Below, piece by piece: positions 18-22,596 of a stretch of 22,843 nt of DNA. Position 1 is the stretch's first letter; every line of letters begins with the position of its first letter. Both the position numbers and the translations under genes were made by a program. The stretch is from IMG/VR virus record IMGVR_UViG_3300031675_000531, positions 1 to 22,843 of that record; one strand, 5' to 3'. This stretch comes from a virus. Under the pieces are notes generated by a model that was not told where the DNA came from, ran no database searches, and saw only the letters and a list, made by a program, of their open reading frames with translations.

Positions 18-941
18 TTAGTTTAGTGATTTGATTATCTTAACAATTCCTGGTGTTTCAGTTAAATTACTTTCCCATTTACTGTATTTAGATACTGCTT
101 TTTCTTTCATTAATGATTGATCTGCATTTGACAATTCAACAATCTCACACCCTCTTGCTGATGCTGTTTCTTCAAACTGTCTTGCATCTTCAGTTGTCCA
201 TCCTCTTTCAAGTGTAGCAACTTCTTTCGCTACTGCGTTTAAAGTTTCTTGTTCTGACGCAGTTAATGTGTCATAAAACTTTTTACTTACAACTATGTCT
301 GTTAAAAACAATGAGTGATTTGATTTTAAGAATTTTTTACCTTCTTTAAATCTAATGTATGTAGTATCTCTAAAATCTACATCACTCTCTTGTTTAAATT
401 CTTTTCTTTCGATTGCGTTTAGACCTAGGCTTTCCATGTACTCTTTTGTAACTGGATTGCTATTAACTAACACTGTTTTACCTGCAAAGTCTTCAATTGT
501 AGGTATTGAATCAAAAGAACCAAATGCTCTGTATCCACCCGAGTAAGTGTATGCTAATCCTACCATACCTCTTTGTTCTAAGTGACTGTTTATGTGTGTA
601 CCAACTTTTCCATCTAACACTTTAGTTGCGTGGTCATGTGATTCAAACATCCATGGCATGTCTAGTACATTGTGTAGGCCGCCTAAATCTGCTACCTCAA
701 CCTGTGCTATTGAAATGTCGTCATTTTTTAATGATTCAAATAGATTTGAATAATCAATTTTTTTACCATATTGTGATTCGTACTCATTAAAGTCAGCAAT
801 TAGTTCAACCTGTAGTTCTCCGTTGCTTCTTTTTTCTAACAACTCTTTGAATGCTGTTGCTGGTCTCATTACAACTTCTGCAGGGCATGGGCCAAACCCT
901 TGTTTGTTAGTTGATAAAATCAACCATTTTAGTGTTTTCAT
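18..941 (-). CDS. TRAP-transporter DctP-like solute-binding protein, no signal peptide
   Basis: The 307-residue product matches the DctP fold of TRAP-transporter substrate-binding proteins. It has an early FKELLEKRSNGELQVEL stretch (the usual 'snG.v.v' element), a GGYRAF motif near 135-140, an AGKTVLV strand at 153-159, and a late helix with LTASEQETLNAVAKE. In cellular homologues this protein sits in the periplasm and delivers carboxylates to a DctQM permease. Two things are odd. The N-terminus goes straight into the first strand with no signal peptide, so the product should stay in the cytoplasm. At the place where the family has GlkIRV, with the ligand-carboxylate arginine, the sequence reads GKTVLV, so Leu158 replaces the arginine. 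No permease gene is near. The start is fixed by AAGGAG at 952-957, ten bases upstream. It is a stand-alone gene downstream of the helicase on the same strand. The family call is firm; the function is open. Confidence 0.85.
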   Translation of the reverse strand: MKTLKWLILSTNKQGFGPCPAEVVMRPATAFKELLEKRSNGELQVELIADFNEYESQYGKKIDYSNLFESLKNDDISIAQVEVADLGGLHNVLDMPWMFESHDHATKVLDGKVGTHINSHLEQRGMVGLAYTYSGGYRAFGSFDSIPTIEDFAGKTVLVNSNPVTKEYMESLGLNAIERKEFKQESDVDFRDTTYIRFKEGKKFLKSNHSLFLTDIVVSKKFYDTLTASEQETLNAVAKEVATLERGWTTEDARQFEETASARGCEIVELSNADQSLMKEKAVSKYSKWESNLTETPGIVKIIKSLN

Positions 942-1102
942 ATTGCGCCATCTCCTTATATTGCAATTTAATTTAAATGTATTTACTGGATATTTATCTG
1001 GATTATTAGGATTAGTCCAATCAAACTGGTAATATACTCTATTTCGCTTGAATTATATTAAGTTAGTAATGAAACTGATAATATGCTACTGTATTGTGGC
1101 TA
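942..1102. other. Intergenic region between helicase and DctP-like gene
   Basis: This is 161 bases of AT-rich DNA, the longest non-coding stretch in the window. It holds the Shine-Dalgarno of the DctP-like gene and, at 991-998, a minus-strand GATAAATA, one base off the T4 late octamer TATAAATA. I saw no convincing hairpin terminator and no plausible small gene in it. It probably carries the promoter for the DctP-like gene. Confidence 0.5.
952..957 (-). promoter_or_regulatory. Strong Shine-Dalgarno for the DctP-like gene
   Basis: Read on the minus strand this is AAGGAG, ten bases before the ATG at 941-939. Most genes in this window have weak or no Shine-Dalgarno sequences, so this one stands out and fixes the start that lacks a signal peptide. 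Confidence 0.7.
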
Positions 1103-2569
1103 TTACTGATCTTCGTCTGAGTGTAGCTCGTTTAACAGTTGTCTTAGTTTGCCACCTTCAACTGATGCCTTAACTTTACCAATGTCATCACCTTTACGAG
1201 GATCTGGCATCTTTGGTTCGTTTGATGTGTCTGCTGTTACTTTTGAAGTTTGTTTTAGAGAATCATATATCTTATTCTTACCCTGTGTGTTGTAACTTTG
1301 TGACTCTTCTTCATCCAGACTGCTGATTCTCAAACTGTCTACATTAAATTCTAAGTCTACTTTTTGTCCAACACCACTAGATGATCTAGTTTTCATAAAC
1401 TGTATTTGATATCTGCCACGTTCTTTCATTGCTCTACTTGTAAAGATACCGATCACATTATCTGCTGTTTGTATCTTAGATAGTCCGCCTGAGATGTGAG
1501 AGTGATCAAATTCTATTTCTTCAACACTTGCTCTGTTTAACTGTGATGCTGTTGCTAACACACATTGTTTTTCAACAACCAAGTTTCTTAATTCCTCAGA
1601 CACATACTTGTCTTTGATAAACAAGTCTGCAGGTGATATTCTTTTGCTCTTAGGCATCATGAGATCCAAGTAATCAATTAGTATACAATCTATTTTCTTT
1701 TTTGATTTAAGTTCTAATTCTTTTAGATACGTTCTAATATCTAGTACATTACTTCCACTTGGCAAATATTTGATCTGCAAGTTACCTGATTTTTTCTTTA
1801 ACATTTTAACTTTCATCTCAACGTCATCTAGTTGCTTCATTACTGATCTTGTTGGAATGTTAGTCATCATGGCATCTAGCCTCATTGCCGTTAGTGCTTC
1901 TGATAATTCAAAAGAGATGTAACAAACATTAAGTCCGGCTGTGGCCCAATTAACTGCAAGATTCTGCAAGAACAAACTCTTACCTGCTCCTGATCCACCT
2001 GCGAAGATGTTTAGCTCTCCTCTGTTAAATCCACCAAACAGTTTCTTATCCAAGTTAGCCCACCCTGTGCTTATCTGTCCGTTGTTATCTTTTAATGCTT
2101 GTAGTCTACCTTTCGGATCTTCGAAATAGTCTGTACCCATATCTCTTGTAAGTCCTACACTGACTGCTTCTTTAACCATGTCCTCAACAGGACCATAATC
2201 ACCTTTCTCTAAAAGATCAGCTGATGATAGTATTGCTTGTTCAAGTGCTTTGTGTCTTGAGAATGTTTCAAACTCGTCTAGTAGCCAGTTGAAGTGTGCT
2301 GGATCTAAATCCTTTGCTTCTTTTAATTGTATTTCGTGTTCTGCATTTATCTGTGCTACTTCCGGCATCACTTTGTAATCGTCCATATAGTCTTTAACAA
2401 ACTTTGCTATAGGTTGCAGTTTACGATCAAATGATTTAGGATTGAATATGTTCTGTGCTCTAGCAAACGATTCAGCATCTGCTAATAACATTTCAATATA
2501 CAATTTCTGTACATCAAATGAATAGTTCTTAGCCTGGTGTTGCTCTTCGTTGTTATTATAATCAGCCAT
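1103..2569 (-). CDS. 41: Replicative DNA helicase, T4 gp41 / DnaB family
   Basis: The 488-residue protein is a hexameric replicative helicase of the DnaB/gp41 type, which unwinds DNA at the phage fork and partners the primase. The N-terminal third is helical. The RecA-like core follows, with STGWANLDKKLFGGFNRGEL leading into Walker A (AGGSGAGKS, about 190-198), YISFELSE near 218-225, Walker B ILIDYLDLM near 297-304, and ASQLNR at 341-346, where DnaB proteins have the glutamine sensor. The length is close to T4 gp41 (about 475). The C-terminal tail is charged and low in complexity, and may be the primase-binding end. Its start overlaps the primase stop by 8 bases, indicating coupled translation of the primosome pair. 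Confidence 0.95.
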   Translation of the reverse strand: MADYNNNEEQHQAKNYSFDVQKLYIEMLLADAESFARAQNIFNPKSFDRKLQPIAKFVKDYMDDYKVMPEVAQINAEHEIQLKEAKDLDPAHFNWLLDEFETFSRHKALEQAILSSADLLEKGDYGPVEDMVKEAVSVGLTRDMGTDYFEDPKGRLQALKDNNGQISTGWANLDKKLFGGFNRGELNIFAGGSGAGKSLFLQNLAVNWATAGLNVCYISFELSEALTAMRLDAMMTNIPTRSVMKQLDDVEMKVKMLKKKSGNLQIKYLPSGSNVLDIRTYLKELELKSKKKIDCILIDYLDLMMPKSKRISPADLFIKDKYVSEELRNLVVEKQCVLATASQLNRASVEEIEFDHSHISGGLSKIQTADNVIGIFTSRAMKERGRYQIQFMKTRSSSGVGQKVDLEFNVDSLRISSLDEEESQSYNTQGKNKIYDSLKQTSKVTADTSNEPKMPDPRKGDDIGKVKASVEGGKLRQLLNELHSDEDQ

Positions 2570-3575
2570 ACATCTTTCTCTTTAAATCTATTTTCAGTTT
2601 ACTTGATTCTGTTGTTTTTAATATAGATTGTATCGTAAACAGTCTACCGTATTTTAACACAGCATCAGCCACATCGTCAACTCCATCTTCCCATTCTGGA
2701 AAAGCAACTGACCATCCAAACTCCAATGCTTGGTTAATAAGTTTTTGACCAGGAGCATCTCTGTCTGGTACAACTATTACTCGTCTGTTTAGATTATTAA
2801 TCAATTCTTTTTGTATATCATTTATCTCCGATCCAAGTATGCTCACACCAGAAACGGTAATAGCATCAAACGGACCTTCTGTTACTAGCACAAATTTTCT
2901 TGACCAATCCTGTGCATCCATGTTGAACACATATCCAGGCTGTACATCTGTGTAATACTTGACCCTATCAGACTGTTCGAACATCCTACCCGTGAAGCCC
3001 ACTATGTCTCCTCTCCAGTAAAACGGTATTAGTAATCTTTTGTTTACGTCCCAATGCTGATCCGGAGAATACATAAAGTCATACCAGTCGGCACCGATAC
3101 CTCTACTTTTTAAATAATTTAATAATGCATCTATCTTGTTCCATTGTGGCTCTGTTAAATCTTTTGCAACATATTTTTCTAACCATACTTCTAGGTTGTG
3201 TGTATTCTTTGGCAATTCTCTTTTACTAAATGTAACAAATTTTTTCTGCTCGTATTTTGTGTCTCCTTCTTCTTCACGCATGGCTTCGATGGCCATTTTT
3301 CTTATAGTATCATCTGGAATATTAATGTAGCCCATAAACGTTCTCATCTTTTGATTCAGTTTACGACCAATAACATAGTTTGCTTTGAACCCACAGTTAA
3401 AACAATGAAATGATATTGTGCCATCTGCACTGGTCATTATTCCTCCACGTTTCTTTTTGTCTGCTGTCTCTCCATTGTGTACACAACAAGGTGCATTGAA
3501 ACTTATCCAACCACTGGGTGTTTTCTTTTTGTTCGCAGGTAGAGATGTCAGAATAGTATTCTGTATCACGTTCAT
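2562..3575 (-). CDS. 61: DNA primase, T4 gp61 family
   Basis: This 337-residue protein is a TOPRIM primase that makes RNA primers for lagging-strand synthesis. A zinc-binding module at the N-terminus has Cys30/Cys31 and His33, then Cys58 and Cys61 (FHCFNCGF). The TOPRIM domain has LVTEGPFDA with Glu233 and VVPDRDAPGQ with Asp271 and Asp273, the metal-binding residues of the family. The length matches T4 gp61 (about 340). It overlaps the helicase start by 8 bases and lies ten bases behind the structural gene at 3586. I see no Shine-Dalgarno in front of the ATG, so it may depend on read-through from upstream or on a leader-independent start. Confidence 0.92.
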   Translation of the reverse strand: MNVIQNTILTSLPANKKKTPSGWISFNAPCCVHNGETADKKKRGGIMTSADGTISFHCFNCGFKANYVIGRKLNQKMRTFMGYINIPDDTIRKMAIEAMREEEGDTKYEQKKFVTFSKRELPKNTHNLEVWLEKYVAKDLTEPQWNKIDALLNYLKSRGIGADWYDFMYSPDQHWDVNKRLLIPFYWRGDIVGFTGRMFEQSDRVKYYTDVQPGYVFNMDAQDWSRKFVLVTEGPFDAITVSGVSILGSEINDIQKELINNLNRRVIVVPDRDAPGQKLINQALEFGWSVAFPEWEDGVDDVADAVLKYGRLFTIQSILKTTESSKLKIDLKRKMYG

Positions 3576-10588: not shown

Positions 10589-10616
10589 ATTATAACATAT
10601 TTGGTAAAGCAGTCAA
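10589..10616 (-). promoter_or_regulatory. Sigma70-like promoter for the HARP/uvsW operon
   Basis: On the minus strand TTGACT (10616-10611) is followed after 16 bases by TATAAT (10594-10589). This is five of six and six of six against the bacterial vegetative consensus. Transcription would begin about 15 bases before the ATG at 10567. The plus strand of the same gap shows only weak -10 candidates (TATATT, TATAAC). A host-type promoter fits early or middle expression of the operon by the host polymerase. Confidence 0.6.
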
Positions 10617-10618
10617 CC

Positions 10619-11095
10619 ATGAAAAAGATAAAAAGTAAAAGTGTAAATGTTAAAAAACAACTGAAGATCAAGTTGGAAAACACTCTGACTAGACACAAGA
10701 ACATTGTTGGCTTTAGACCCACCGAAGCCCAAGCATACAGTTGGTTTAGATATCTAAATAAAACATTATTCAACAACAGATTGCCAATGGTTCCACTATA
10801 TGTAAAAAGTATACACAAAGATTGGGGCAGATGTGTTGCTAATTGGGATAATAGAAAAACTCCTAAAGGTAAATTTGATCAAAGAGTTATACCATATCAT
10901 ATAGAAGTAGATTATTATATAGAACTACATCTTAAATTTCCTAAGTGGAAAGACTTTATAGAAACGTTAGCACACGAAATGGTGCATCTATACCAAATGA
11001 CTTGGTTGAAAGATCCTTACTCAAATCACAATGCAAACTTTTTTGCTTGGAAAAGTAAATTTAATGCGGCCGGATTACGTCTGGCTAGATGCTAG
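10619..11095 (+). CDS. SprT-like zinc metalloprotease
   Basis: The 158-residue protein has the zincin signature LAHEMVHLYQM: His119, catalytic Glu120 and His123, with the third ligand probably His137 in SNHNANFF, followed by the GLRL element. This HExxHxxQ...H layout is the SprT family, which includes the DNA-protein-crosslink protease SPRTN. The N-terminal 25 residues are strongly basic (MKKIKSKSVNVKKQLKIK) and may bind DNA. I chose the ATG at 10619; a TTG at 10601 in the same frame adds six residues but lies within the promoter region of the divergent operon. It is an isolated plus-strand gene. Its end overlaps the convergent glycan gene by 21 bases. The substrate is unknown; phage-DNA-linked protein removal or prohead processing are possibilities. 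Confidence 0.85.
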   Translation: MKKIKSKSVNVKKQLKIKLENTLTRHKNIVGFRPTEAQAYSWFRYLNKTLFNNRLPMVPLYVKSIHKDWGRCVANWDNRKTPKGKFDQRVIPYHIEVDYYIELHLKFPKWKDFIETLAHEMVHLYQMTWLKDPYSNHNANFFAWKSKFNAAGLRLARC

Positions 11096-11830
11096 TTCTT
11101 TCTCAAACTCCGCATAAGTTATAACTCTACTGTTGCCTAGGTCAGTACCTGTCTGAAAATGATTCATATAGTCAGGTGGATCGTCATGTACTACTGTGTA
11201 GGTTACATAAGGTCTCATTTTTAACATATCTCTGAATTGTTTCAACCATCCTTCGAATATTGCATCGCTATGTCTCTCACCGTAGTTCTCTGTGTCTTGG
11301 TATATATTATTCAATTGGTCCTTGCCATATTCTCTAAAGTCAAATCCTATCAAATAGATATTCTTGTGTCCGTGTACACCAGCAGTCCAGAAGGCCGCGT
11401 TACCCGAAATCCAATGAGGATTGTTAGGTATAAGGTGCAACATGCCTTTGTGTTGTTTCCTGTTAACTTCTAGTGCAGGAGCATAGTGAAAACAGTTTTC
11501 ATAAACTTTGTCCTCACACATCTTTACTGTTACTTTGGTATCCACTGAAAAAATAAAGTCGGGCATAAAGTCTCTATACAATGCATTACATCCATAAGTT
11601 TGTCCTGTTGCTTTTAGTTTGTTTAGGTCAAACTCTTTACGTGAAGGTCCGTTGCCTATACAGTACGCATTTCCTCTAGGGACTGCTTTCACTCTGTCTT
11701 CGAAGAATCCTGTTTCTTGTATACGTTCCCCCTTACGTATTATTGTGTTCAAGACAATAGTTTCACCTGCATATGGTGTCCATTCAATAGGATGTATTTC
11801 AGGCTTGCCGCCAATTTTTATAGTTTTCAT
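11075..11830 (-). CDS. DUF115 / CstII-type sialyltransferase-like protein
   Basis: The 251-residue product has IGNGPSRKEFDL at 58-69, the nucleotide-binding signature of DUF115 proteins and of the GT42 sialyltransferases (GNGPSl.e.d). It is followed by GCNALYRDF (80-88) and PDFIFSVD (90-97), where these families have rcN.fy and the D/N that contacts the sugar nucleotide. A later segment, ISGNAAFWTAGVHGHKNIYLIGFDF, is typical of DUF115. No signal or membrane segment. It is the last gene of the leftward glycan operon, with a 4-base overlap (ATGA-type) with the gene upstream, and a GAGGAG in front of its start. A glycosyl- or sialyltransferase is likely; the sugar is not known. Confidence 0.65.
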   Translation of the reverse strand: MKTIKIGGKPEIHPIEWTPYAGETIVLNTIIRKGERIQETGFFEDRVKAVPRGNAYCIGNGPSRKEFDLNKLKATGQTYGCNALYRDFMPDFIFSVDTKVTVKMCEDKVYENCFHYAPALEVNRKQHKGMLHLIPNNPHWISGNAAFWTAGVHGHKNIYLIGFDFREYGKDQLNNIYQDTENYGERHSDAIFEGWLKQFRDMLKMRPYVTYTVVHDDPPDYMNHFQTGTDLGNSRVITYAEFEKELASSQT

Positions 11831-12699
11831 TTTAAATATTTCTCCTCAAGTCTTGCTTTAATTCTAGTCCATGGTAGTCCTTGTTCGATTTCGTCTTTAA
11901 ACCATTCTGTGTATGCAAGTTTGTGTGCCCACCCTAATCTGTTAGGCATCGCTGGTGTATTAATGTCGCACAGTTTTAAATTGCCAACATCATGGCACAA
12001 ACTGTCTTCAGAGACAAAAACTGGCACACCACTAATAATTGCTTCCATGGCAGGATTAGAACTGTGATTAACCACAGCCCATGTTCTTTCTAATGTGTTC
12101 TTAAAATCAGTATCATCATAAGTTCTAAAATCTCTCTTAGGTAAACGAACTTTAACATTTTGAAAATCACTTTCTTTAAATTGGATAGTATTACGAGGGT
12201 GTGGTCTAACAAGTATTGGTCGAGCAGTATATTTTCTAATTTCACTTATTTGTTGCTCAATCCAAGTTGACATCTTTGGAAGTCCTTTCCATTGTTCTGA
12301 TGCATCGTGTTGTCCGCATATAACAATTATGTCACCTGTCGGGTTCCACGGCTTGAGTGTGTGTTTGAATAATGACCAACGCTTATCATCAAACTCTTGA
12401 TTGGCAAAGTCTGCCTGTCTGTTGATACCATTAATTCCTATCTTAAAACTTTCATTTCTTCTAAGACCACCGACTTCTAACACAATAACAGGTCTTCCGG
12501 TGGATCTAAATTCATCCCATATCCTTTTATAGTTTTCCATTCGTCCACGCCACAGCACACTCCATATTACTGCCACGTCTGCATTACACGACCTATTGAG
12601 AACTACTGTGTCTCCTGCATCTTGTAAACTCTTTATAAATGCGTCGAATATGGGTTTTGAATTTTGTGGTCCATATTCTGTCCAAACTTCTATCTTCAT
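11827..12699 (-). CDS. KpsC/KpsS-like polysaccharide glycosyltransferase, paralog 1
   Basis: The 290-residue protein has the two hallmarks of the capsule KpsC/KpsS (beta-Kdo transferase-like) family: ILVRPHPR (162-169) and VVNHSSNPAMEAIISGVPVF (209-228), the sugar-nucleotide-binding half of a GT-B fold. Canonical KpsS is nearer 390 residues, so this is a short form, in which the N-terminal half is cut down. Its last 35 residues (WAHKLAYTEWFKDEIEQG) match the ends of three other proteins in the window. It is six bases behind the GT-A gene and overlaps the DUF115-like gene. A role in transferring an acidic sugar to a surface glycan is inferred; the donor is unknown. Confidence 0.7.
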   Translation of the reverse strand: MKIEVWTEYGPQNSKPIFDAFIKSLQDAGDTVVLNRSCNADVAVIWSVLWRGRMENYKRIWDEFRSTGRPVIVLEVGGLRRNESFKIGINGINRQADFANQEFDDKRWSLFKHTLKPWNPTGDIIVICGQHDASEQWKGLPKMSTWIEQQISEIRKYTARPILVRPHPRNTIQFKESDFQNVKVRLPKRDFRTYDDTDFKNTLERTWAVVNHSSNPAMEAIISGVPVFVSEDSLCHDVGNLKLCDINTPAMPNRLGWAHKLAYTEWFKDEIEQGLPWTRIKARLEEKYLK

Positions 12700-12705
12700 A
12701 AAATA

Positions 12706-13578
12706 TTATTTTAATTGTTTCCAGTAATCAACAGTAGGTTCAGAACGTAAATCATTACGTGATGACGCACCGATTTTTTTACGATTGCCTTTCATGTGAT
12801 CCATATACTGTCCTAACTCACTGTTAACAAACACATGGTGTCCTTTTACACCTTTCCAGTAACCTATATCGTTTACTTGTATGTTTTTTTCTTTTCTATA
12901 TATTTTTGACAAGTGCCAAAACACATACGAGTCATGCCATTCTAATAATTTAAATACTTCGTCTGTAACATAAAGATTTTCCCAATCATTTACAAAGTTT
13001 TGTATCTCTGGATGTTTCATGTTATACCCAACGAATCCACACTCTGGATATTTGCCACCGTCGTTTAGTTTTGGATTCTCACGACCTAAGTATGTTAACA
13101 TTGTTTCTTGTGGTAATACATTTTTAAAAAAGTCTATCGGTGTAGGTCTAAATGAAAATGTATCTCCGTCGATCCACACAACATAATCATATTCTTTTGA
13201 ATTACGTACAGCATTTACAACACAAAATACTTTGTTTGAAAATCTCACAGCGGCCCAAAGAAATGATCCTTTGTTTTTGTCGTTTCCGCCCATTGCTTGT
13301 AGTTCTGCTGGACGTCTTACTCCGCCTTCTATTTCTTCTAACTCTCCGTTTGCAACAGGATCGTTTTTGTGTTTGTTTTTAAATTTGAATAATTCTGGCT
13401 CGGCAGTGTTAAGGTCTATCCATTGTATCCTATCATATTTGCATTCAGGTTTAGGCTCTTCTGCATATACTACTATGTCAACTTCTTTTGGAAATTGCTC
13501 AGCCATAGACTCGATACCTTTCTTACCGTATTGTTCCCAACAGCCAGGCTTGTATGATGTGATAACTTTGATTTTCAT
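12706..13578 (-). CDS. GT-A fold glycosyltransferase with DxD motif
   Basis: The 290-residue protein starts with a beta strand, MKIKVITSYKPG, and has VVWIDGDTFSF (133-143), in which Asp137 and Asp139 form the metal-binding DxD of GT-A enzymes. It is followed by ECGFVGYN (179-186), like the e.gf.g.n acceptor-site motif in GT8/GT32-type and similar transferases. The segment RFSNKVFCVVNAVRNSKEYDY before the DxD is the usual helix leading to it. No membrane anchor. It is part of the leftward operon, 16 bases after asnB and six bases before the KpsC/S-like paralog. It transfers a sugar from a nucleotide donor, probably onto the same glycan; which sugar is not visible. Confidence 0.75.
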   Translation of the reverse strand: MKIKVITSYKPGCWEQYGKKGIESMAEQFPKEVDIVVYAEEPKPECKYDRIQWIDLNTAEPELFKFKNKHKNDPVANGELEEIEGGVRRPAELQAMGGNDKNKGSFLWAAVRFSNKVFCVVNAVRNSKEYDYVVWIDGDTFSFRPTPIDFFKNVLPQETMLTYLGRENPKLNDGGKYPECGFVGYNMKHPEIQNFVNDWENLYVTDEVFKLLEWHDSYVFWHLSKIYRKEKNIQVNDIGYWKGVKGHHVFVNSELGQYMDHMKGNRKKIGASSRNDLRSEPTVDYWKQLK

Positions 13579-13594
13579 AATATTGATATTTAAT

Positions 13595-15343
13595 CTACCT
13601 GGTCATGTTGTATTTTTTAATCCAATCACTAACAATCCATGCAGGTATAAGTGCCTTGCCGGCTTGCTGACTAGCTTTCGTTACATCTAGTTTAGAATTT
13701 TCGCCTGTTCTTTCTTTGTAAAATTTATTCAATTTAGAACTTGTACTAGTAGTCAGCCAATGCCCAACAGGAACAGTCCATCCAGTTTTTACTTTATTAA
13801 TAATTTCGTTTGGTAATTTGCCTAGGTATGCCTTCTTAATAAAAGTTTTAGTATCGTTTTTATCAGGACCTAATTTCGAATCGGTGTGCATACTCATACA
13901 ATATTGCATAAACATTTTTGTTGCTAATGGGAAACGTCCTTCCATACTGTAGGCCATGCCGTACTTGTCGTTTCTATTAAACATTTCTTCTGGTACCTGA
14001 GCAACACAGTCTAACGCCATATATGATCCTATAGGGTCATTAGAATTCCACAATTCTCCTGAATAGCATTTACGAAATTCTTTTATTAGTATATCATCAC
14101 TTATAGGATTATCGGTTAATTGCAATGGACGTTTTATTCTCTTTAGCCATAGTGCTAGAACATCGTCCCATGTCTCTATTTTTGTTTTACCTATTTGTTT
14201 TTGTAGCCACTGTGGATTTTTCATTTTCCAGTACTTTGGATATCCAGCAAGTATCTCGTCACCCATATCCCCAGCCATTGTAACTACAATTTCGTTCTCT
14301 GATAAAAACTTATTAGTAGAACAATACATCGACATACTAGGATTGTATACAGGTTGTTCCATATAATATATGCTGTTGTCCCAACATTCTATAAATGTTT
14401 CAGGAGTTGCTATAACTTCTTTATGATTAAAATTATTTTGTTGTGCAATTATCTTGGCACAGTTAGCGTCACTATTATAATCTTCATCTGCTTGTACATT
14501 AGGTTCCATTCTGTTTGTAAATGTATTTGCTTCACCTTTTAATTGTTTTAACTCATACGCAACCATGCTTGAATCAAGTCCGCCACTTAGGAATACACCA
14601 ATTTTTCTTCTACCTATTGAACACATCTCAACTGTTTTTTTTACGTTTGTTCTAAACTCTTCTGCATTAAATTGTTTGTTACTTGTAGGTTTAATATAAA
14701 CTCTGTGTGTTTGTGTGATTTTTTTATCGACCATATTGTATACTATGGTCTCTCCTGCTAGTAATTTTTTAATTCCTGTAAAGAATGTATTGCGTAACGC
14801 ATTGATTCCAGTCCTTGCCATGAAACTTACTGCAAGATTGTCCATTGTTCTGCTGTTAGGAACTTTATCTAACATGCCTTTTATCTCAGAACCAAAAACC
14901 AATCCTTCTTTGATTTCTGCATAGTACACAGGTTTTATACCTGCATGATCTCTGCTTAATGTAAGTGTGTTTTTATCAACTTCGTAATACGCAAAGCCGT
15001 GCATAGAATCTATTTCATCAACAAACAATAAGCCAAATTTATCTAGTCCCCAAGCAAGTAGTTCAGTATCACAGCCGGTTGTGTCTGTAAAGTCTTTATA
15101 TTTTTCTTTTAATTCGTAGTAATTAAATATTTCTCCATTATAAACAAGTTTGTTTCCTTGAGGTGTTGTCCACGGCTGTGTAGCATCACCTGGCTCACCC
15201 ATTATGCTTAACAAGTTGTGCCCTAGAGTTATATTTTCGTTGTGCCAAACACTCGACCCGTCAGGTCCTCTGTGCTTACATATATCTATAAATTCTTTTA
15301 TAAATTTTGGATTGTGTTCGGTTATACCGTATATACCACACAT
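13595..15343 (-). CDS. asnB: Glutamine-dependent asparagine synthetase / amidotransferase (AsnB family)
   Basis: The 582-residue protein is a class II glutamine amidotransferase joined to an ATP-pyrophosphatase synthetase domain. Cys2 (MCGIYGI) is the glutaminase nucleophile, with HRGPDG (24-29), NGEIFN (69-74) and the GCDTE loop (90-94). The synthetase domain has the PP-loop FLSGGLDSS at 251-259. All these residues are intact and the length (about 550-630) is normal, so it should be active. In metabolism it makes asparagine from aspartate; in polysaccharide loci the same family amidates uronic-acid sugars, and this position between glycosyltransferases favours that second role as inference. 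It joins the KpsC/S-like gene upstream through TAATG with an AGGA before the ATG. Confidence 0.92.
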   Translation of the reverse strand: MCGIYGITEHNPKFIKEFIDICKHRGPDGSSVWHNENITLGHNLLSIMGEPGDATQPWTTPQGNKLVYNGEIFNYYELKEKYKDFTDTTGCDTELLAWGLDKFGLLFVDEIDSMHGFAYYEVDKNTLTLSRDHAGIKPVYYAEIKEGLVFGSEIKGMLDKVPNSRTMDNLAVSFMARTGINALRNTFFTGIKKLLAGETIVYNMVDKKITQTHRVYIKPTSNKQFNAEEFRTNVKKTVEMCSIGRRKIGVFLSGGLDSSMVAYELKQLKGEANTFTNRMEPNVQADEDYNSDANCAKIIAQQNNFNHKEVIATPETFIECWDNSIYYMEQPVYNPSMSMYCSTNKFLSENEIVVTMAGDMGDEILAGYPKYWKMKNPQWLQKQIGKTKIETWDDVLALWLKRIKRPLQLTDNPISDDILIKEFRKCYSGELWNSNDPIGSYMALDCVAQVPEEMFNRNDKYGMAYSMEGRFPLATKMFMQYCMSMHTDSKLGPDKNDTKTFIKKAYLGKLPNEIINKVKTGWTVPVGHWLTTSTSSKLNKFYKERTGENSKLDVTKASQQAGKALIPAWIVSDWIKKYNMTR

Positions 15344-16323
15344 TACATTCCTAACTTTTCTTTAAATCTTTTGAACACCGTACCATTTCTAATTTCTTTT
15401 TCACTCCACAGTTTATATCCGAGATCGTTAAGCCATTGAGTCCTGTCGGGATATTCCGGAGTTTCTATGTTGTTTAAATCTTTGTTAGCTACTGGCCAAC
15501 TAATTGCAAGGTCTGAGGTATTAAACGTAGGTATCCCGCGAACACAAGAGTCAACACCGGCAGTGGAATTATGTGTAACAACAGCATGACAATTAGATAT
15601 TGCTTCTTGGAAATGGAATCTATAATACTTTTTTTCATCTCCTTGAAAGAACTTTTGTCCTACAATAACTTCTACATCGTCTGGAAACTCTTTTATTCGT
15701 TCTTCTATATGAGCAACATGATTTGGATGAGGTCGTACAATAAATTTTCTATCTGTCATAGGTCTCAATTTTTCATAAACTCCGTTGAACCATTCAATAG
15801 GATCGAGATTGTTCATACTCCAATTGTCTTTAGGTTGTAGCACAAACAGAATTGGATCCTCTTGATCGGATTTTCTCCATGGTTCGCTTTTAACATTCCA
15901 TCTGGTTTTTGCGGCCTCCCATCTATCAGGAGGACTGTTATCTGACAAGAAGTCGCCGTTGTTCATGGGTGAAAATAATGAAACTCGCCAGTGGTGTTTA
16001 TCACCGTGTACATTGCCAAAACTTGAAAGTAATCCTCCGTCAAATGTTATTATTTTAATTCCTTTTTTCTTTGCACGTTCTACTAGGTCTCGTCTACGTC
16101 CCTTGGTGTGATGCATTTGATTACTGCCACCATATCCAAACATGCAACCGATTGGTGCAGTTGGCTCCATTTCATCTTTAGTCCAATCCCCAGTCTTTGT
16201 TTCATTAATCATTATGGGTTCGTCACCACAAGCTCGTATACCTTCAGCCATGTATTGCAAGAGATCATAACTTGCTCCTCTACGTCTATCTTTTACTGTT
16301 CTTCTAAATATTTCAACTTTCAT
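15343..16323 (-). CDS. KpsC/KpsS-like polysaccharide glycosyltransferase, paralog 2
   Basis: The 326-residue protein is the longest of four paralogs. It has FIVRPHPN (194-201) and AVVTHNSTAGVDSCVRGIPTF (247-267), the capsule-synthesis signature, and ends with WLNDLGYKLWSEKEIRNG, matching the other paralogs. The N-terminal half is basic (KDRRRGAS, KGRRRDL) and has ITFDGGLLSSFG near 92-103. It belongs to the RPHP-containing pair, with the product of 11827-12699. A good Shine-Dalgarno (GGAGA) precedes the ATG, and the gene overlaps its upstream neighbour by 11 bases. It is probably a soluble, membrane-peripheral glycosyltransferase using an acidic sugar nucleotide; this is family inference. Confidence 0.7.
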   Translation of the reverse strand: MKVEIFRRTVKDRRRGASYDLLQYMAEGIRACGDEPIMINETKTGDWTKDEMEPTAPIGCMFGYGGSNQMHHTKGRRRDLVERAKKKGIKIITFDGGLLSSFGNVHGDKHHWRVSLFSPMNNGDFLSDNSPPDRWEAAKTRWNVKSEPWRKSDQEDPILFVLQPKDNWSMNNLDPIEWFNGVYEKLRPMTDRKFIVRPHPNHVAHIEERIKEFPDDVEVIVGQKFFQGDEKKYYRFHFQEAISNCHAVVTHNSTAGVDSCVRGIPTFNTSDLAISWPVANKDLNNIETPEYPDRTQWLNDLGYKLWSEKEIRNGTVFKRFKEKLGM

Positions 16324-17128
16324 CTAGTATTCTCCATGCATAACCGTTGCTTATTTCTTCTGCTGTGAATTGACCGTATGCCATTGAATAGTATAACGGT
16401 TCTCTGTCAATGTAGCAAGGGTTTTCTATCTTTGAGAAATCTGTTTCTGATATAGGTGCACAGGCATTATGCACATTAGTAAAACACGGAATACCTCTAG
16501 TAGTAGCTTCTAATGTGATATTTGAATTGTAGGTAACAATAGCATAAGCATCATTCCAATCTATCGGTCCACTAGGTGCAGTATTATCTTTGCCTGTCAC
16601 TATCATTCCTCCGTCGTCATTGTATCCTATAATTGGATTGTATCCTTTATTCTTTACTATTATTGGACGATCGGTATTAGCTTTAAGCGTCTCTAGTGTT
16701 TTGTCTAGCCAGTCGTGTACTCCAAAAAATTCTTTTATAGCATTAGATGGCGGGCATACAATAATGTTCTTTCCGTTTTTCTTCCATGGGTTAATAGGCC
16801 ACGGAAATGATTTTTTAAAACGGTCATCGGGTCTGTCTTCTTGCCAGGTCTTTAAATGATTGTTCTTTACAATTTTAGTGTAGTAAGGATTGTTTCTTGT
16901 TTCACCCCAATACGGTCTGTCCATATAATAAAAATCAATCTTGTTTTTTTCTGCCCATTTGTATACTAGATGTGTTCCACGTAGCACTCCAAACATCACA
17001 GCTTTAGTACAATCTTTTTTATTAATAATGTCATTAGGTAATAATTTTTTTGCATTAGGTAGTCCTTGCACTGCCCAGTCGACATATTTCTCTGTGGGTT
17101 GTCTATTAGTAGAACTAACGTAAATCAT
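16313..17128 (-). CDS. KpsC/KpsS-related protein, paralog 3 (lacks RPHP)
   Basis: The 271-residue protein keeps the second motif of the family, TYNSNITLEATTRGIPCF (199-216), but at the RPHP site it reads PIIVKNKGYN. It is closest to the product of 18947-19759: both have a YYMDRPYWGE / FWFTDTPYFG element near 67-79, IIVCPPSNAI / ILVCPSSAGI, and the end QFTAEEISNGYAWRIL. The pair forms a separate subfamily with a swapped donor-site loop, so the donor may differ or one step may be non-catalytic. The start is the ATG at 17128, 45 bases behind GT61. Part of the leftward glycan operon. Confidence 0.6.
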   Translation of the reverse strand: MIYVSSTNRQPTEKYVDWAVQGLPNAKKLLPNDIINKKDCTKAVMFGVLRGTHLVYKWAEKNKIDFYYMDRPYWGETRNNPYYTKIVKNNHLKTWQEDRPDDRFKKSFPWPINPWKKNGKNIIVCPPSNAIKEFFGVHDWLDKTLETLKANTDRPIIVKNKGYNPIIGYNDDGGMIVTGKDNTAPSGPIDWNDAYAIVTYNSNITLEATTRGIPCFTNVHNACAPISETDFSKIENPCYIDREPLYYSMAYGQFTAEEISNGYAWRILDES

Positions 17129-17173
17129 TACTCATATTTAAGGTTGTCTTGTTACCAGATGTAAATTACCAAT

Positions 17174-18256
17174 TTAATCTAAATGTCTAACTAATTCTGC
17201 AACGTTCACTTTGAAATTAATTAAATCGCTTTTTCTTTTTATGCCTGCAGGCTTTTTCTTACCATCCATTGGTATCGGTACTGCTTCGGCTATATAAAGT
17301 TCGTGCTTCAACCCTAGGTGATGTGAAAGTATTGGATAAACTTTTTTATGAATCATTTTAGGCTCTTGTATTTCGATAACTTTAGTTCCACGTTTACACC
17401 ACAGTAAGTTTACTAATCCTGCACCGTGAGCCGCAACAATGTGTGTTGCTTCTGCAAACGTTTTCATCTGTTCTCTTATACTCATATTTTCGAGGGCAAC
17501 TGCTTCGTACCCTTTAAGTGCTAATAGTAGTTCATCGGAGTTTGTTAGTTTTCTTGTTTTAGCACCTGGACGTAACACAACTATTTTCCTGTGTGCTGTT
17601 GTACCTTTGAGTCCAGGACGTCCTTTGAAATGTTTTAGCCATGGAGCCAAGTGAGGAGTAATAACGCCATCTCTAGAATTGCTTAGACTGGGCACTAGTA
17701 AATGTCTAAACTGCCATGTTTCGCCTTTTGGCATCACTATAACTTTGACCTCGGGAAATAATTCTTTGATACATTTTTTAAGATACTTGCTTTCGTTTGC
17801 TAACACGTAGCAGTATCTTGTAAAATCTGTGGACCATCTCTTTTCTAAAAGTCTAAATTTAGATATAACGTCAATCCAAATATGCCATGGATTTTCTGCA
17901 CTTGCTTCATCAATTGGTAACCATACGTAATGATATTTCTTGTCAAAGTATTCGGTAGTAGGTGGTAATACAACATCCACATCATCACTCCAGTCATTCC
18001 AAAGTTTGTGTGATTTTTGAGGCTTATGTTTGCTGGCATGTGTGAGTCCCCAAACATAATTGGTTATAAGTTTGTTAGCCATAGTAACAAGTACTGGGCA
18101 AGTGTTTACCTTAACATTATGAAATTCTGCGACGAACGTTGGTAAACTTGTAAAGTTTGGATCAATATCTTCATGGTATGGCACGGCATAATCATAACCA
18201 TTATCTACCATTTCCCATTTGTCTAAAAAGTATTTGATCGAATCTATGTTTTTCAT
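17174..18256 (-). CDS. GT61-family glycosyltransferase
   Basis: The 360-residue protein has the complete GT61 (DUF563) signature in its C-terminal domain: VVLRPGAKTRKLTNSDEL (226-243), then ALENMSIREQMKTFAEATHI (254-273), and AAHGAGLVNLLWCKRGTKVIEI (275-296), with the HGAGL loop at 277-281. This family includes EGT-type and xylosyl/GlcNAc transferases, and in bacteria is common in LPS and capsule loci. The N-terminal half has HIWIDVISKFRLLEKR, the usual linker. No signal peptide or membrane anchor. It is the first gene of the leftward operon, with the shared divergent promoter directly upstream. Confidence 0.88.
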   Translation of the reverse strand: MKNIDSIKYFLDKWEMVDNGYDYAVPYHEDIDPNFTSLPTFVAEFHNVKVNTCPVLVTMANKLITNYVWGLTHASKHKPQKSHKLWNDWSDDVDVVLPPTTEYFDKKYHYVWLPIDEASAENPWHIWIDVISKFRLLEKRWSTDFTRYCYVLANESKYLKKCIKELFPEVKVIVMPKGETWQFRHLLVPSLSNSRDGVITPHLAPWLKHFKGRPGLKGTTAHRKIVVLRPGAKTRKLTNSDELLLALKGYEAVALENMSIREQMKTFAEATHIVAAHGAGLVNLLWCKRGTKVIEIQEPKMIHKKVYPILSHHLGLKHELYIAEAVPIPMDGKKKPAGIKRKSDLINFKVNVAELVRHLD

Positions 18257-18258
18257 GT

Positions 18259-18291
18259 TTGCATTTTGTCAGTAAGTATACTATAATTATA
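18259..18291 (+). promoter_or_regulatory. Promoter for the rightward glycan operon
   Basis: TTGCAT at 18259-18264 is followed after 17 bases by TATAAT at 18282-18287, a perfect -10. Transcription would start about 12 bases before the ATG at 18307. The -10 lies inside TATAATTATA (18282-18291), which reads the same on both strands and also serves the opposite promoter. Confidence 0.6.
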
Positions 18292-18314
18292 CTACTAAAC
18301 AACAGCATGAGCAA
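18286..18314 (-). promoter_or_regulatory. Promoter for the leftward glycan operon
   Basis: On the minus strand TTGCTC (18314-18309) is followed after 17 bases by TATAAT (18291-18286), a perfect -10, with a leader of about 22 bases to the GT61 ATG. It overlaps the rightward promoter, and the two share the palindromic TATAATTATA. The -35 falls inside the first codons of the divergent SGNH gene. Confidence 0.55.
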
Positions 18315-18972
18315 ATTATTATCAAATGGGTGTAGTTTCTTAACACCGAGAAACAAAGACGGGGTAGAAACATTTACCACAAAAATCTTAGCGGAAGGTT
18401 ACAATCTAGAATTGTTTAACCTTGCAATGGGTGGTCGTGGTAATACTAGAATAAGTTTTTCAACTAAGGTTTGGTGTGAGCAAAATAATAATGAAGATGT
18501 TTTTGCTGTGATAGGGTGGTCCAGTGCAGTAAGGAACGACTACATAACAGACGATGGGTGGAAGAAAGGCCGTATACCCGGTACCGATCTTACTTGGCGG
18601 ACTTGGAAGACATTAGACAATGTAAGTTTTATACGAAAACAACAAGGCTGGGATATAGAAAGCAATCTTACTATGAAGTTTCTTAATAATGTTTTTGATT
18701 TGCAAAATTATTTTGAACGTAAGCAAATACCTTATGTGATGTATAACTCTCTGCCTAACGACTTTGGTAATGGCACCGAAGACTTTACTATAATTAGAAA
18801 TGCAATCAACATGGATAGATTCTTTAATCCAAAAGTGAGTCAACTTGAATTTGCCTCTGATAAAAATTTAATAGTAAGTCCTAACGATCCACATCCGTCA
18901 GCCGAAGGCCACGAACAGTGGGCAAAACAATTAAAAGAGTTTATAGATGTTAACAATTTACGCACCATTTAA
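18307..18972 (+). CDS. SGNH/GDSL-type hydrolase
   Basis: The 221-residue protein has the block I serine in SNGCSF (Ser10), the block II-like GGRGNTR (42-48), which carries the oxyanion Gly/Asn, and block V NDPHPSAEGH, with Asp194 and His196 as the rest of the triad. Such enzymes add or remove O-acetyl groups on polysaccharides, or cleave esters. There is no signal peptide or membrane segment, so it acts inside the cell or is released at lysis. I chose ATG at 18307, which places GCSF near the N-terminus as usual; a TTG at 18259 would add 16 residues and overlaps the promoter. First gene of the rightward operon, overlapping the next by 26 bases. Confidence 0.78.
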   Translation: MSKLLSNGCSFLTPRNKDGVETFTTKILAEGYNLELFNLAMGGRGNTRISFSTKVWCEQNNNEDVFAVIGWSSAVRNDYITDDGWKKGRIPGTDLTWRTWKTLDNVSFIRKQQGWDIESNLTMKFLNNVFDLQNYFERKQIPYVMYNSLPNDFGNGTEDFTIIRNAINMDRFFNPKVSQLEFASDKNLIVSPNDPHPSAEGHEQWAKQLKEFIDVNNLRTI

Positions 18973-19759
18973 TAATAAAAATAGCAAAGCATACGAAGTC
19001 TTCGATGGTGTGCAAAAGTCTTGGCCCGAACAAACAAAATTGTTAGACAATCAAACTGAAATAGAACCAGTAGCAAACAGTATGTTTTGGGGATTCGTTG
19101 GCAATAATAGAGCTATGGTTAAAAAACTTGAAGCACGTAAGCACCAGTTTTGGTTTACAGATACTCCGTACTTTGGAAGATTTGATAATAATAATTTAAA
19201 ACCAGACAATCATTATTGGCGTATTTGTAGAAATAAAATTCATGCATCATATATTAAGATGTGCAAGTCAGATAGATTTGATAAATTTGGAATTAAAATT
19301 AAAGCACCTAACTTTAAAGGTAGTTACATATTGGTATGTCCTAGCTCAGCTGGTATACACAACTACTTAGACAAACCTAATTGGACAAATGACATCGTAG
19401 CACAAATTAAAAGGTACACAGATAGACCAATAAAAATTCGACAAAAGCCCCGAGGTAGAGGTACATCAGGACCAAGTGAAGCAACAGTTCCCTTATCTGA
19501 GGATCTCAAAGACGCTTGGGTATGTGTAACAAGTTGTTCGATAGCCGCCGTTGAAGCACAGTGTATGGGCATACCTGTTATATGTGATGAAAAAAGTTTT
19601 GCTAAAGAAGTTGGTGGACAAGAACTTGCAGACATTGAAAATCCTTTCTTTGTTGGTTGTGAAGATTGGGTATACAGTTTGGCTTATCAACAGTTTTCAC
19701 CAGAAGAAATTGCCAACGGTAAAGCAGTAGAGATATTAATGGACAAAGGATTATTGTGA
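18947..19759 (+). CDS. KpsC/KpsS-related protein, paralog 4 (lacks RPHP)
   Basis: The 270-residue protein pairs with the product of 16313-17128. It shares FWFTDTPYFGR (68-78), ILVCPSSAGI (128-137), VTSCSIAAVEAQCMGIPV (194-211), and the end YSLAYQQFSPEEIANGKAVEIL. At the RPHP position it has IKIRQKPRG. It is on the other strand from the other three paralogs, so the family has been duplicated and dispersed on both arms of the cluster. Its ATG at 18947 lies in the last codons of the SGNH gene, and its TGA overlaps the GTG start of the methyltransferase. Its precise activity is not visible. Confidence 0.6.
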   Translation: MLTIYAPFNNKNSKAYEVFDGVQKSWPEQTKLLDNQTEIEPVANSMFWGFVGNNRAMVKKLEARKHQFWFTDTPYFGRFDNNNLKPDNHYWRICRNKIHASYIKMCKSDRFDKFGIKIKAPNFKGSYILVCPSSAGIHNYLDKPNWTNDIVAQIKRYTDRPIKIRQKPRGRGTSGPSEATVPLSEDLKDAWVCVTSCSIAAVEAQCMGIPVICDEKSFAKEVGGQELADIENPFFVGCEDWVYSLAYQQFSPEEIANGKAVEILMDKGLL

Positions 19760-20397
19760 AAATAGAAAAATTAAGCGAGGGGCTATGGGTTCCGTCCGCA
19801 GATGCTCAGATAGAACAATGGCGTGAAAAAGGAAAGCCATTCATGCAGGAAACTGGACTCAATGAGTTTCTTCAATGGTGCGAAAATCAACATAAAAAAT
19901 TTAATCTAATAGTAGATGTGGGAGCATGGTGCGGAACATGGACATTGGCCATGCAAAAATATGCAAAAAATATACATTGTTATGAACCAAACAAAATACA
20001 TTATGAATGCCTTACAAGAAATGTAGCACGATATAATCATGTTAGATTGTACAATCAAGCAGTTGGTAATGAAGATGGATTTGTTAAACTAACTGAGGAG
20101 TCTGCCACACAGAATACTAGAGTCCTAATGGAAAAGGGAGAAACAAAGATCAATAAATTAGATTCCTTAGACACAACAGGCATTGACATGATTAAGATAG
20201 ATGTCGAGGGCCTCGAAATGGAAGTTCTTAAAGGTGCAGGAAAAATTTTAGAAAATGTTGAATACTTAATGATCGAATTGAATGGTAATAGTGAGAAATA
20301 CGGTAGCAGTAAAAAGGATATCAAGGAACATCTGAAATCCCTCGGGTTCAAGGTATTAATGAAAACCTGGCCTGACCTTGTCTATTACAAAGCATAA
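19756..20397 (+). CDS. FkbM-type SAM-dependent methyltransferase
   Basis: The 213-residue protein has the SAM-binding motif I DVGAWCGTW (54-62), motif II acidic end CYEPN (75-79), CLTRN, and the FkbM signature DMIKIDVEGLEMEVLKGAGK (144-163). FkbM proteins methylate hydroxyls on sugars and natural products, and are frequent in LPS and capsule loci. The start is GTG, supported by AAAGGA five bases upstream and by overlap with the stop of the previous gene; an ATG is not available in a better place. It is followed directly by a second FkbM-type gene through TAATG. Confidence 0.85.
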   Translation: MKIEKLSEGLWVPSADAQIEQWREKGKPFMQETGLNEFLQWCENQHKKFNLIVDVGAWCGTWTLAMQKYAKNIHCYEPNKIHYECLTRNVARYNHVRLYNQAVGNEDGFVKLTEESATQNTRVLMEKGETKINKLDSLDTTGIDMIKIDVEGLEMEVLKGAGKILENVEYLMIELNGNSEKYGSSKKDIKEHLKSLGFKVLMKTWPDLVYYKA

Positions 20398-20999
20398 TGT
20401 ACGAATACTTAGAAAAACTAAAAGTCAAACACGAGTTCATGCCAGCAAAGATCTTAGACATAGGTGCTTGGAATGGTTTTTGGACTAACAATGTTAAAAA
20501 AATCTGGGCAGAGGCAGAATACACATGCATAGAAGCAGGACAAAAGCATGAGAAGAAGTTGAAAGAAATTACGTCCAACTATCATATCGCAGTGTTAGGA
20601 GATTCGAATAGAGAAATTAAAATGCATCTGGCTGAAATTTCAAAAGGCAACAAAAAGAAAATAACGTACACAAAAGGTTCCAGTGTGTTTGGTGTGTATG
20701 AAAATTATGAGTTGAGACAGATGCAGACACTAGATGAGTTAGTGGGCAGTGACGCACAGTTTGATTTGGTAAAACAAGACGTTCAAGGTGCAGAGATTAT
20801 GATAATGAAAGGTGCTCCAGAGATTTTTAAGAGAGCAAAGTATGTGATACAGGAAGTGAACCTACACAAGGATGAAAATTTTCCAGACATGCCCCATGAA
20901 GAAATAATGGACAGTTACATGAGCACATTGGGATTCAATAACAGCGACATCATAGCCACGCACGACGGATTAGATCAAGTGGACAAGATCTACTTTTAA
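20397..20999 (+). CDS. Second FkbM-type methyltransferase
   Basis: The 200-residue protein has DIGAWNGFWT (21-30) as SAM motif I, CIEAG in place of EPn at motif II, and DLVKQDVQGAEIMIMKGAPE (123-142) as the FkbM block. The QDVQGAE form, with Gln in place of Glu, and the lost EPN are departures from the typical enzyme, so substrate or activity may differ from its neighbour. It is probably a divergent copy of the gene before it, in the same transcript (TAATG junction). Its stop shares the TTAA tetramer with the stop of the convergent oxygenase-like gene. Confidence 0.8.
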   Translation: MYEYLEKLKVKHEFMPAKILDIGAWNGFWTNNVKKIWAEAEYTCIEAGQKHEKKLKEITSNYHIAVLGDSNREIKMHLAEISKGNKKKITYTKGSSVFGVYENYELRQMQTLDELVGSDAQFDLVKQDVQGAEIMIMKGAPEIFKRAKYVIQEVNLHKDENFPDMPHEEIMDSYMSTLGFNNSDIIATHDGLDQVDKIYF

Positions 21000-21598
21000 C
21001 CTCTATAAAAACAATTTTTATTATCTTTCATAAGAAATAAATTTAATGTTATTCTTTGCTCCACTTGATCACTTTCGTAACTGTGCCAAGTCTTGCCTTG
21101 TTGTCCGCAAAATATAAAAGTACTGTTAGGCTTCCATTCTGCTTCTTTAACAAACGCTTTTTCATTCTGCTCCGTGTACATTTTTGTTCCCACATTCACT
21201 TCTGGAGTTATGTAGGTTACACTGCTCCATATTTTTTCAAGCCCTTCTTGGTGTATGTAGAACTTATAAGGCAACGGTGGAGTCACAGAAATGTGGGCAT
21301 TGACAGATAGGTCTTCGAACCATCTATAATTGGGATATTGGTCACACAAAACTTTTGCATTATCTAAAATTATTTTAGCTATATCATGTATTTGATCATA
21401 GAACTTAATGTTATGATCAGTAAAATCTTTTGGAAATATATGAACAAGTCTGTCTTTGGGCACCTTTATGTTGAGACACTGATCTTTAAGTTTAACGAAT
21501 TCTTCTTGTGGCAATGTGTCTTCTATAATTTGATGCGACCATGGATCATTGATTGTGGTGCTGTCAATACATTTACTTACAAAATGCTTTCCTATCAT
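20996..21598 (-). CDS. 2OG-Fe(II) oxygenase-like protein
   Basis: The 200-residue protein fits the double-stranded beta-helix 2-oxoglutarate oxygenases. YIHQEGLEK gives His116 and Glu118 (HxE in place of HxD), YITPEVNVGTKMY (129-141) is the strand before the jelly-roll turn, and TWHSYESDQVEQRITLN gives His172 and Arg182, the third iron ligand and the 2OG-binding arginine. These enzymes hydroxylate proteins, sugars or small molecules and are common in marine T4-like phages. It overlaps the radical SAM gene upstream by 4 bases and has an AGGA before its ATG. The substrate is unknown; a glycan or the partner radical SAM product are candidates by position only. Confidence 0.7.
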   Translation of the reverse strand: MIGKHFVSKCIDSTTINDPWSHQIIEDTLPQEEFVKLKDQCLNIKVPKDRLVHIFPKDFTDHNIKFYDQIHDIAKIILDNAKVLCDQYPNYRWFEDLSVNAHISVTPPLPYKFYIHQEGLEKIWSSVTYITPEVNVGTKMYTEQNEKAFVKEAEWKPNSTFIFCGQQGKTWHSYESDQVEQRITLNLFLMKDNKNCFYRG

Positions 21599-22596
21599 TG
21601 CATACTTCCTATTTTACTAATTGTATTTTGTTGTTCTGCCTGTAATTTTGATTCCATGCCTCTTGTCCAGTTGCCGTTGAACTTAGCCCTAGAACAAGTG
21701 TTGCAGATCAAATTCTTTTTTTCTTCTGAGTATTTTTCAGCGTATATTATTTCGTGTTCTTTTTGCATGTTTTTCCATGCTCCCTCAATTCCGATTTCAA
21801 AAATGTTTCCATAGTCTGTCTTTCCTTCTGCATCATCACAACACAAAACTGCTTGTCCGCTCACTAACACTTCCATTCTCCTTAGTATACGTCCGGAGCC
21901 CATTGCACACCCTTGCATATAATTTTCTTCATCAATTACAGAATTGTATGGTTTAGTCCAATCACCATCCCCGTCGCCCATTCTATTTTCAACCCAGTTC
22001 TGTTTGGATTTCACTTTTCCAAGTGTAACGTCCTGATATTCTTTAATAACTTTGGCACTAGCAGTGGCCGATTGATTTTTGTGTTTAACACCGATTTTAA
22101 TCCTTTCTGAAAGTTTTGGATAGTTTTCTTTTACAAAGTTTAGACTTTTCAGTGTCTTGTCTTTTTTGATATTCATAAACTCCCATAGTTCTTCTGCGGT
22201 ATGTCCGATAACACTCATATGAACATTACCTATTAGGTGTTTGTATTTGTTTAAAATTTCACACTGTTTTTTAGTAAATGATACACCGTTAGTAGTAATA
22301 CCAACATTAATTTTATAGTGATTACACAGTTCCATGATGTACTCTAGATTAGGTTGCACTAGTGGATCACTGTATCTCCATGGACTAATAGCACACGCAT
22401 AATCTTTTACTTTGTATTTTTTTATAAGTGAACCGTAGTCGTGTAACAGCATACCTAATTGTTCTTTGGTCATTAGTTGACCGTGATATGTTTTGTCTTC
22501 ACTTAATGTGGTGTATGGACAACAATAACATTTTGCGTTGCATAAGTTGATAGGTTCAAATGCTATTGACGAGGGCAATGGTATCTCTCTATACAT
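21595..22596 (-). CDS. Radical SAM protein with SPASM-like C-terminus
   Basis: The 333-residue protein has the radical SAM cluster motif at Cys19, Cys23 and Cys26 (CNAKCYCCP), followed by the usual TIM-barrel pattern (ISPWRYSDPL, TTNGVSFT, HMSVIGH). The C-terminal part has further cysteines in a SPASM-like layout: Cys230, Cys252 and Cys253 in VLCCDD, then Cys298 and Cys301 in CNTC, with GNIFEIGIEGAWKN between. Such enzymes modify peptides or sugar nucleotides using auxiliary iron-sulfur clusters. It overlaps the small gene upstream by 8 bases and the oxygenase-like gene downstream by 4. Members of this type occur in surface-glycan clusters; the substrate here is not visible. Confidence 0.88.
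   Translation of the reverse strand: MYREIPLPSSIAFEPINLCNAKCYCCPYTTLSEDKTYHGQLMTKEQLGMLLHDYGSLIKKYKVKDYACAISPWRYSDPLVQPNLEYIMELCNHYKINVGITTNGVSFTKKQCEILNKYKHLIGNVHMSVIGHTAEELWEFMNIKKDKTLKSLNFVKENYPKLSERIKIGVKHKNQSATASAKVIKEYQDVTLGKVKSKQNWVENRMGDGDGDWTKPYNSVIDEENYMQGCAMGSGRILRRMEVLVSGQAVLCCDDAEGKTDYGNIFEIGIEGAWKNMQKEHEIIYAEKYSEEKKNLICNTCSRAKFNGNWTRGMESKLQAEQQNTISKIGSMQ

Follow-up and report, generated by a model that had tools for sequence, protein, structure and literature searches.

Cyanophage PstS is a phage-borne solute-binding protein that is exported and serves the phosphate transporter of the host. By definition, TRAP solute-binding proteins, represented by SiaP, DctP, and IseP, are regarded as extracytoplasmic. 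Among DctP proteins, 96.8% have the arginine of the KIRV motif, and SiaP loses high-affinity binding when this residue is replaced (PMC4646407). The gene considered here lies at positions 18 to 941 (minus strand) of the window, the whole stretch of DNA that was analyzed, which is a 22,843-base IMG/VR virus record, and it encodes a 307-aa DctP (SBP_bac_7) homolog. Like SiaP, DctP, and IseP, the window DctP is predicted to adopt the complete fold over residues 1 to 307 (Z 29–31), and it scores above the Pfam cutoff. Unlike them, the phage family to which it belongs has no signal peptide, is found without DctM, lacks the KIRV arginine in the window protein and in most other members, and has an [E/D]xTxxR motif instead of the QENP-type loop. 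Cyanophage PstS and the window DctP are both phage-carried solute-binding proteins, but PstS belongs to a different family and is exported. An uncultured-phage entry, A0A6J7WKL0 ("TRAP transporter solute receptor DctP/TeaA"), and PHROG 31178 are related in sequence or fold and carry only automatic names or an unknown function; no description of either was found. A literature search on phage TRAP or DctP genes found nothing relevant, the "dctp" matches referring to the nucleotide dCTP.

A DctP homolog without an export signal

Membership in the DctP family, originally proposed from the sequence alone, was confirmed with Pfam PF03480 (117.6 bits against a cutoff of 23.4, E 8.5e-34) and NCBIfam NF037995 TRAP_S1 (89.7 bits, cutoff 50); the score against TIGR00787 was 98.1 bits, under its cutoff of 175. 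The AlphaFold2 model (55 sequences in the alignment) had a mean pLDDT of 94.4 and a pTM of 0.92, and a fold search with it gave a best Z of 31.4 (4xeq and 4nhb), with 286 residues aligned at an rmsd of 2.4. All 50 PDB entries listed were TRAP-type binding proteins, judged by title. Residue 1 of the model pairs with TRAP binding-protein chains at their starts at about residues 25 to 37, just past their signal peptides, and as modeled the window DctP is a whole two-lobed binding protein that begins where the mature form of an exported one would. The dN/dS ratio was ∼0.18–0.21 between the window DctP and its nearest relatives and 0.05–0.21 overall in the phages, so the protein sequence is under selection, and these values rule out decayed cargo or a degraded fold.

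The original prediction placed the start at the first core strand under a strong Shine-Dalgarno sequence, and it had raised an upstream in-frame start in close relatives as the way in which a signal peptide might have been overlooked. The sequence AAGGAG (952 to 957, minus strand) precedes the ATG at 941 by 10 nt and is likewise present 5′ of the ATG in near relatives; a promoter and terminator scan around the gene gave nothing over chance level. The frame 5′ of the ATG is open for 37 codons and contains no ATG, GTG, or TTG, so a signal peptide cannot be added with a usual start, and the relatives begin at the same place. A signal peptide is absent in all 94 viral members inspected (83 and 11 further). 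The first-strand tryptophan, in the first core strand, is preceded by 4–9 residues in the 83 viral DctPs versus 28–48 in Bdellovibrionota sisters, and maximal 12-residue hydropathy is ≤1.34 in the viral proteins versus 2.08–3.07 in signal peptide–bearing bacterial sisters; no Tat-type hydrophobic stretch was found in the viral DctPs. The absence of an export signal in the family is well supported at the sequence level, and the phage DctP is probably cytosolic, as had been predicted. The predicted lack of a permease was borne out for its DctM part: DctM was not detected in the window nor elsewhere on the 28 viral records searched (∼2.7 Mb in total, window included, the records being fragments). 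It was found somewhere in 8 of 10 bacterial genomes carrying DctP relatives.

Ligand site and phylogeny of the family

The KIRV motif of TRAP structures lines up with T156-V157-L158-V159 of the window DctP, which puts Leu158 (468 to 470, minus strand) in the place of the canonical carboxylate arginine, equivalent to SiaP Arg147, just as first noted. That the loss of this arginine is the defining change was not upheld. The KIRV-site residue is arginine in 35, lysine in 14, and another residue in 34 of 83 viral relatives, and it is arginine in none of the 11 further viral DctPs (35/94 overall); the trait changed at least nine times on the DctP tree. Since the canonical arginine is kept in just 35 viral members, its loss is, as read from alignment and tree, a recurrent side feature of the clade, and the 35 keepers together with the repeated changes rule it out as a family mark.

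What the family holds constant lies in three minus-strand motifs: TYSGGYR (T132–R138; 528 to 548) in the hinge strand, invariant in 60 of 60 family rows except at Y137 (Y or F); D-T-T-Y-I-R (residues 192–197; 351 to 368), replacing the canonical loop; and HSLFLT (residues 209–214; 300 to 317) in the second hinge strand. T132, Y133, S134, H209, and T214 are invariant in all 60 rows and not so in generic DctPs, whereas R138, the acidic residue 192, and R197 were present in 83/83 viral DctPs and in 11/11 more. The invariance of R138 and R197 means that another arginine is probably in the site, and R197 may well lie within the binding pocket. The caveat attached to the original prediction, that a nearby arginine might replace the missing one, may therefore apply. 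The pattern of invariant residues fits a kept, retuned binding site, and retention of the pocket is well supported by the alignment.

Direct searches with the window DctP returned only the same phage, in two copies, and a single relative at 67%. Fetching and searching 80 helicase neighborhoods gave six more members (30–41% identity); a scan with an alignment of those returned 327 viral contigs, and a wider alignment returned 476, with DctP-bearing records of up to 344 and 338 kb. The clade of the window DctP was not found among 50,697 isolate-phage records, so this collection offers no cultured representative of these phages; the few weak matches there (∼20–26% identity) were rejected, as they lay on short records lacking annotation or on a bacterial contig whose annotation is an ordinary TRAP DctP. 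The clade of signal peptide–less phage DctPs is large, conserved, and undescribed.

In a tree rooted with generic DctPs from the same genomes, the family forms a single clade (support 99). Thirty-four rows, all of them viral, make up the clade of the window DctP (support 90); viral copies stand together with chromosomal ones in a second clade, where neither kind has a signal peptide, and a third contains signal peptide–bearing bacterial DctPs plus two without; the signal-peptide state changed at least three times (undirected count). The Bdellovibrionota homologs (L089 and L092–L098) share the family clade and the TYSGG[YF]R and ExTxxR motifs but differ in N-terminal extensions that contain a hydrophobic stretch and in mostly keeping the KIRV arginine. 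Chromosomal copies L091, L099, L100, L103, L105, and L106 resemble the phage proteins in having no signal peptide, and those of L091 and L103 also lie next to the same AsnB-like enzyme as phage copies, but their setting is bacterial and the KIRV arginine is kept in 8/8 such rows. The expectation of a phage clade always without a signal peptide thus holds for every viral copy inspected but not as a phage-only trait. Two Bacteriovoracaceae metagenome-assembled genomes (L097 with L100, and L089 with L106) each encode a signal peptide–bearing member alongside one that lacks the signal peptide.

Genomic setting and neighboring adenylating enzymes

The upstream neighbor of the window DctP is a DnaB-like replicative helicase (1103 to 2569, minus strand; PHROG 19, E 3e-72), followed by a DNA primase (2562 to 3575, minus strand; PHROG 47, E 1.5e-37). 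The helicase shares 53% identity with its counterpart in Pseudomonas phage PA5oct (287 kb) and 48% with the one in Agrobacterium phage Atu_ph07 (490 kb), and from this similarity the record is probably part of a large phage genome. Elsewhere in the window, positions 11075 to 22596 form a long island among family-less proteins, possibly surface-glycan or natural-product cargo, with an asparagine synthase that has a glutaminase domain (13595 to 15343), a GT61 glycosyltransferase, and a radical-SAM/SPASM gene; an SprT-like protein is encoded at 10601 to 11095 (plus strand; Pfam E 2e-7). Porin-type β-barrel-looking ORFs occur on the same phages (L002, 13797 to 14246, and L016, 11630 to 12646, both minus strand).

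Across the family, DctP contexts include the phage genes for head maturation protease, large terminase, UvsX, and DNA polymerase, and the slot differs by lineage, being directly after the head maturation protease gene in L138/L142 and elsewhere among replication or metabolic genes. Tandem or multiple signal peptide–less copies per phage are present in L188 (5791 to 9405) and in records of L155 and L158, and the L188 copies adjoin a membrane protein resembling a sodium/solute symporter.

A cassette with an adenylating enzyme, which the original prediction did not foresee, is the better lead. In a marine lineage (L167, L169, L175, L180, and L182), an AsnB-like gene begins 4 nt inside the DctP stop, and in many other members such a gene lies 15–80 nt downstream. 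Overlapping genes of this asparagine synthetase/β-lactam synthetase–like kind have no recognized Pfam domain in L167 (1038 to 2210) and L182 (5047 to 6222). Bacterial contigs L091 and L103 carry the pair too, and L110 carries it with a different AsnB-like protein. In the partner enzymes of cluster 2, the sequence SGGIDS (PP-loop SGGxDS) is invariant in 16. Their model is weak outside residues 67–344 (mean pLDDT 66.8), and its core matches β-lactam synthetase (1mbz) and asparagine synthetase with Z of 14.5–12, the next unrelated group reaching 8.3. They have no Pfam domain (the glutaminase domain was checked, the N terminus being poorly modeled), and by sequence against the PDB, a single protein gave no match and a profile gave short PP-loop matches only. 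By its PP-loop and modeled synthetase-domain fold, the cluster 2 partner is a member of the asparagine/β-lactam synthetase superfamily.

A second PP-loop family is found close to DctP in freshwater lineages, where 11 of its 24 genes lie within 3 kb of DctP, with 2.35 expected (12 large viral records, which are nonindependent), and none of 20,000 shuffles was as high. DUF2061, AMP ligase, short-chain dehydrogenase/reductase (SDR), β-keto acid cleavage enzyme (BKACE), and TctC binding-protein genes are also near DctP in these lineages. The TctC/Bug binding proteins on DctP-bearing freshwater contigs (L148, 9118 to 10029 and 12383 to 13276; L137, 13241 to 14134) have signal peptides, and their genes are near those for BKACE, SDR, and AMP ligase, making up an organic-acid gene island. 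In the window's own lineage, DctP is followed, in order, by genes for a small conserved protein, a hydroxylase-like protein, and an AsnB-like protein, the last 1.24–1.27 kb downstream of DctP; this protein (cluster 22) matches other AsnB-like families over 34 columns only (Prob 70). No adenylating enzyme was found within 5 kb of DctP in lineages L138/L142, L159, and L176. Large phages gather cargo in islands, so closeness between DctP and an enzyme need not mean joint function.

Proposed function and alternatives

Our best reading, tentative and given a little less than even confidence, is that the window gene encodes a DctP-type protein relocated to the cytosol that binds a carboxylate metabolite on behalf of a metabolic cassette carried by the phage. 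A solute-binding protein that had lost its export tag and its permease partner would have kept its two-lobed fold and the family ligand site (TYSGGYR, [E/D]xTxxR, and HSxFxT) under purifying selection. We infer that, inside the infected cell, it would close on a small carboxylate metabolite, R138 and R197 taking the charge role of the KIRV arginine that is variable here and serves in ordinary TRAP proteins, and that it would present or reserve the acid for the cassette. The usual partner, an asparagine synthetase/β-lactam synthetase–like enzyme, might then receive the acid and activate its carboxylate with ATP. A more specific form of the proposal, in which a cytosolic solute-binding protein holds the acid for a partner adenylating synthetase in a "binding protein–fed" biosynthetic cassette of large phages and some bacterial chromosomes, is possible but doubtful. 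The original suggestion that the fold has been repurposed stands in part: the lack of an export signal and of DctM and a full fold with a pocket-type signature speak for it, but the arginine loss is not defining and the trait is not phage-only.

The two main rivals are a sponge and an enzyme. The full binding fold, the invariant pocket signature, the missing permease, and the occurrence of DctP as a lone, movable gene at widely differing phage loci would also suit a cytosolic sink or sponge. Such a protein would need no enzyme partner and would sequester an organic acid of the host or a small acidic signal, either to control metabolism or to counter defenses. We regard this as unlikely, given that an adenylating enzyme is repeatedly found beside DctP in both phages and bacteria, at times with the genes overlapping, and given the existence of chromosomal bacterial copies and the PADLOC result, which gives no defense link (zero families matched); a sponge for an abundant metabolite would, moreover, require very high expression. 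THI5 is an example of an enzyme with a binding-protein fold, and a similar conversion, to an enzyme acting on a carboxylate of the same cassette, would agree with the missing export signal, with the invariant polar set of R138, acidic 192, R197, H209, and Y133, and with the metabolic neighbors BKACE, SDR, and AMP ligase. However, tight binding would account for these residues just as well, and the nearest signal peptide–bearing sisters retain the same motif, which leaves this an improbable account. Very improbable is a virion or prohead protein that enters the cell along with the DNA, for which the L138/L142 position directly after the head maturation protease gene could be cited; other lineages have DctP among replication or metabolic genes, chromosomal copies occur in nonphage contexts, and little speaks for the earlier suggestion of a virion or takeover protein, because the gene sits in so many different genomic slots. 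Least probable of all is an ordinary TRAP binding protein that takes an unusual export route to the permease of the host, a view that matches the fold and family score but not the 94 viral proteins without a signal peptide or Tat-type stretch, nor the absence of the canonical arginine from most of them.

For a fold defined by work outside the cytoplasm, a clade without export signals suggests a second life inside cells. The invariant residues and the overlapping partner gene provide a concrete test set for the use of host organic acids by large phages.
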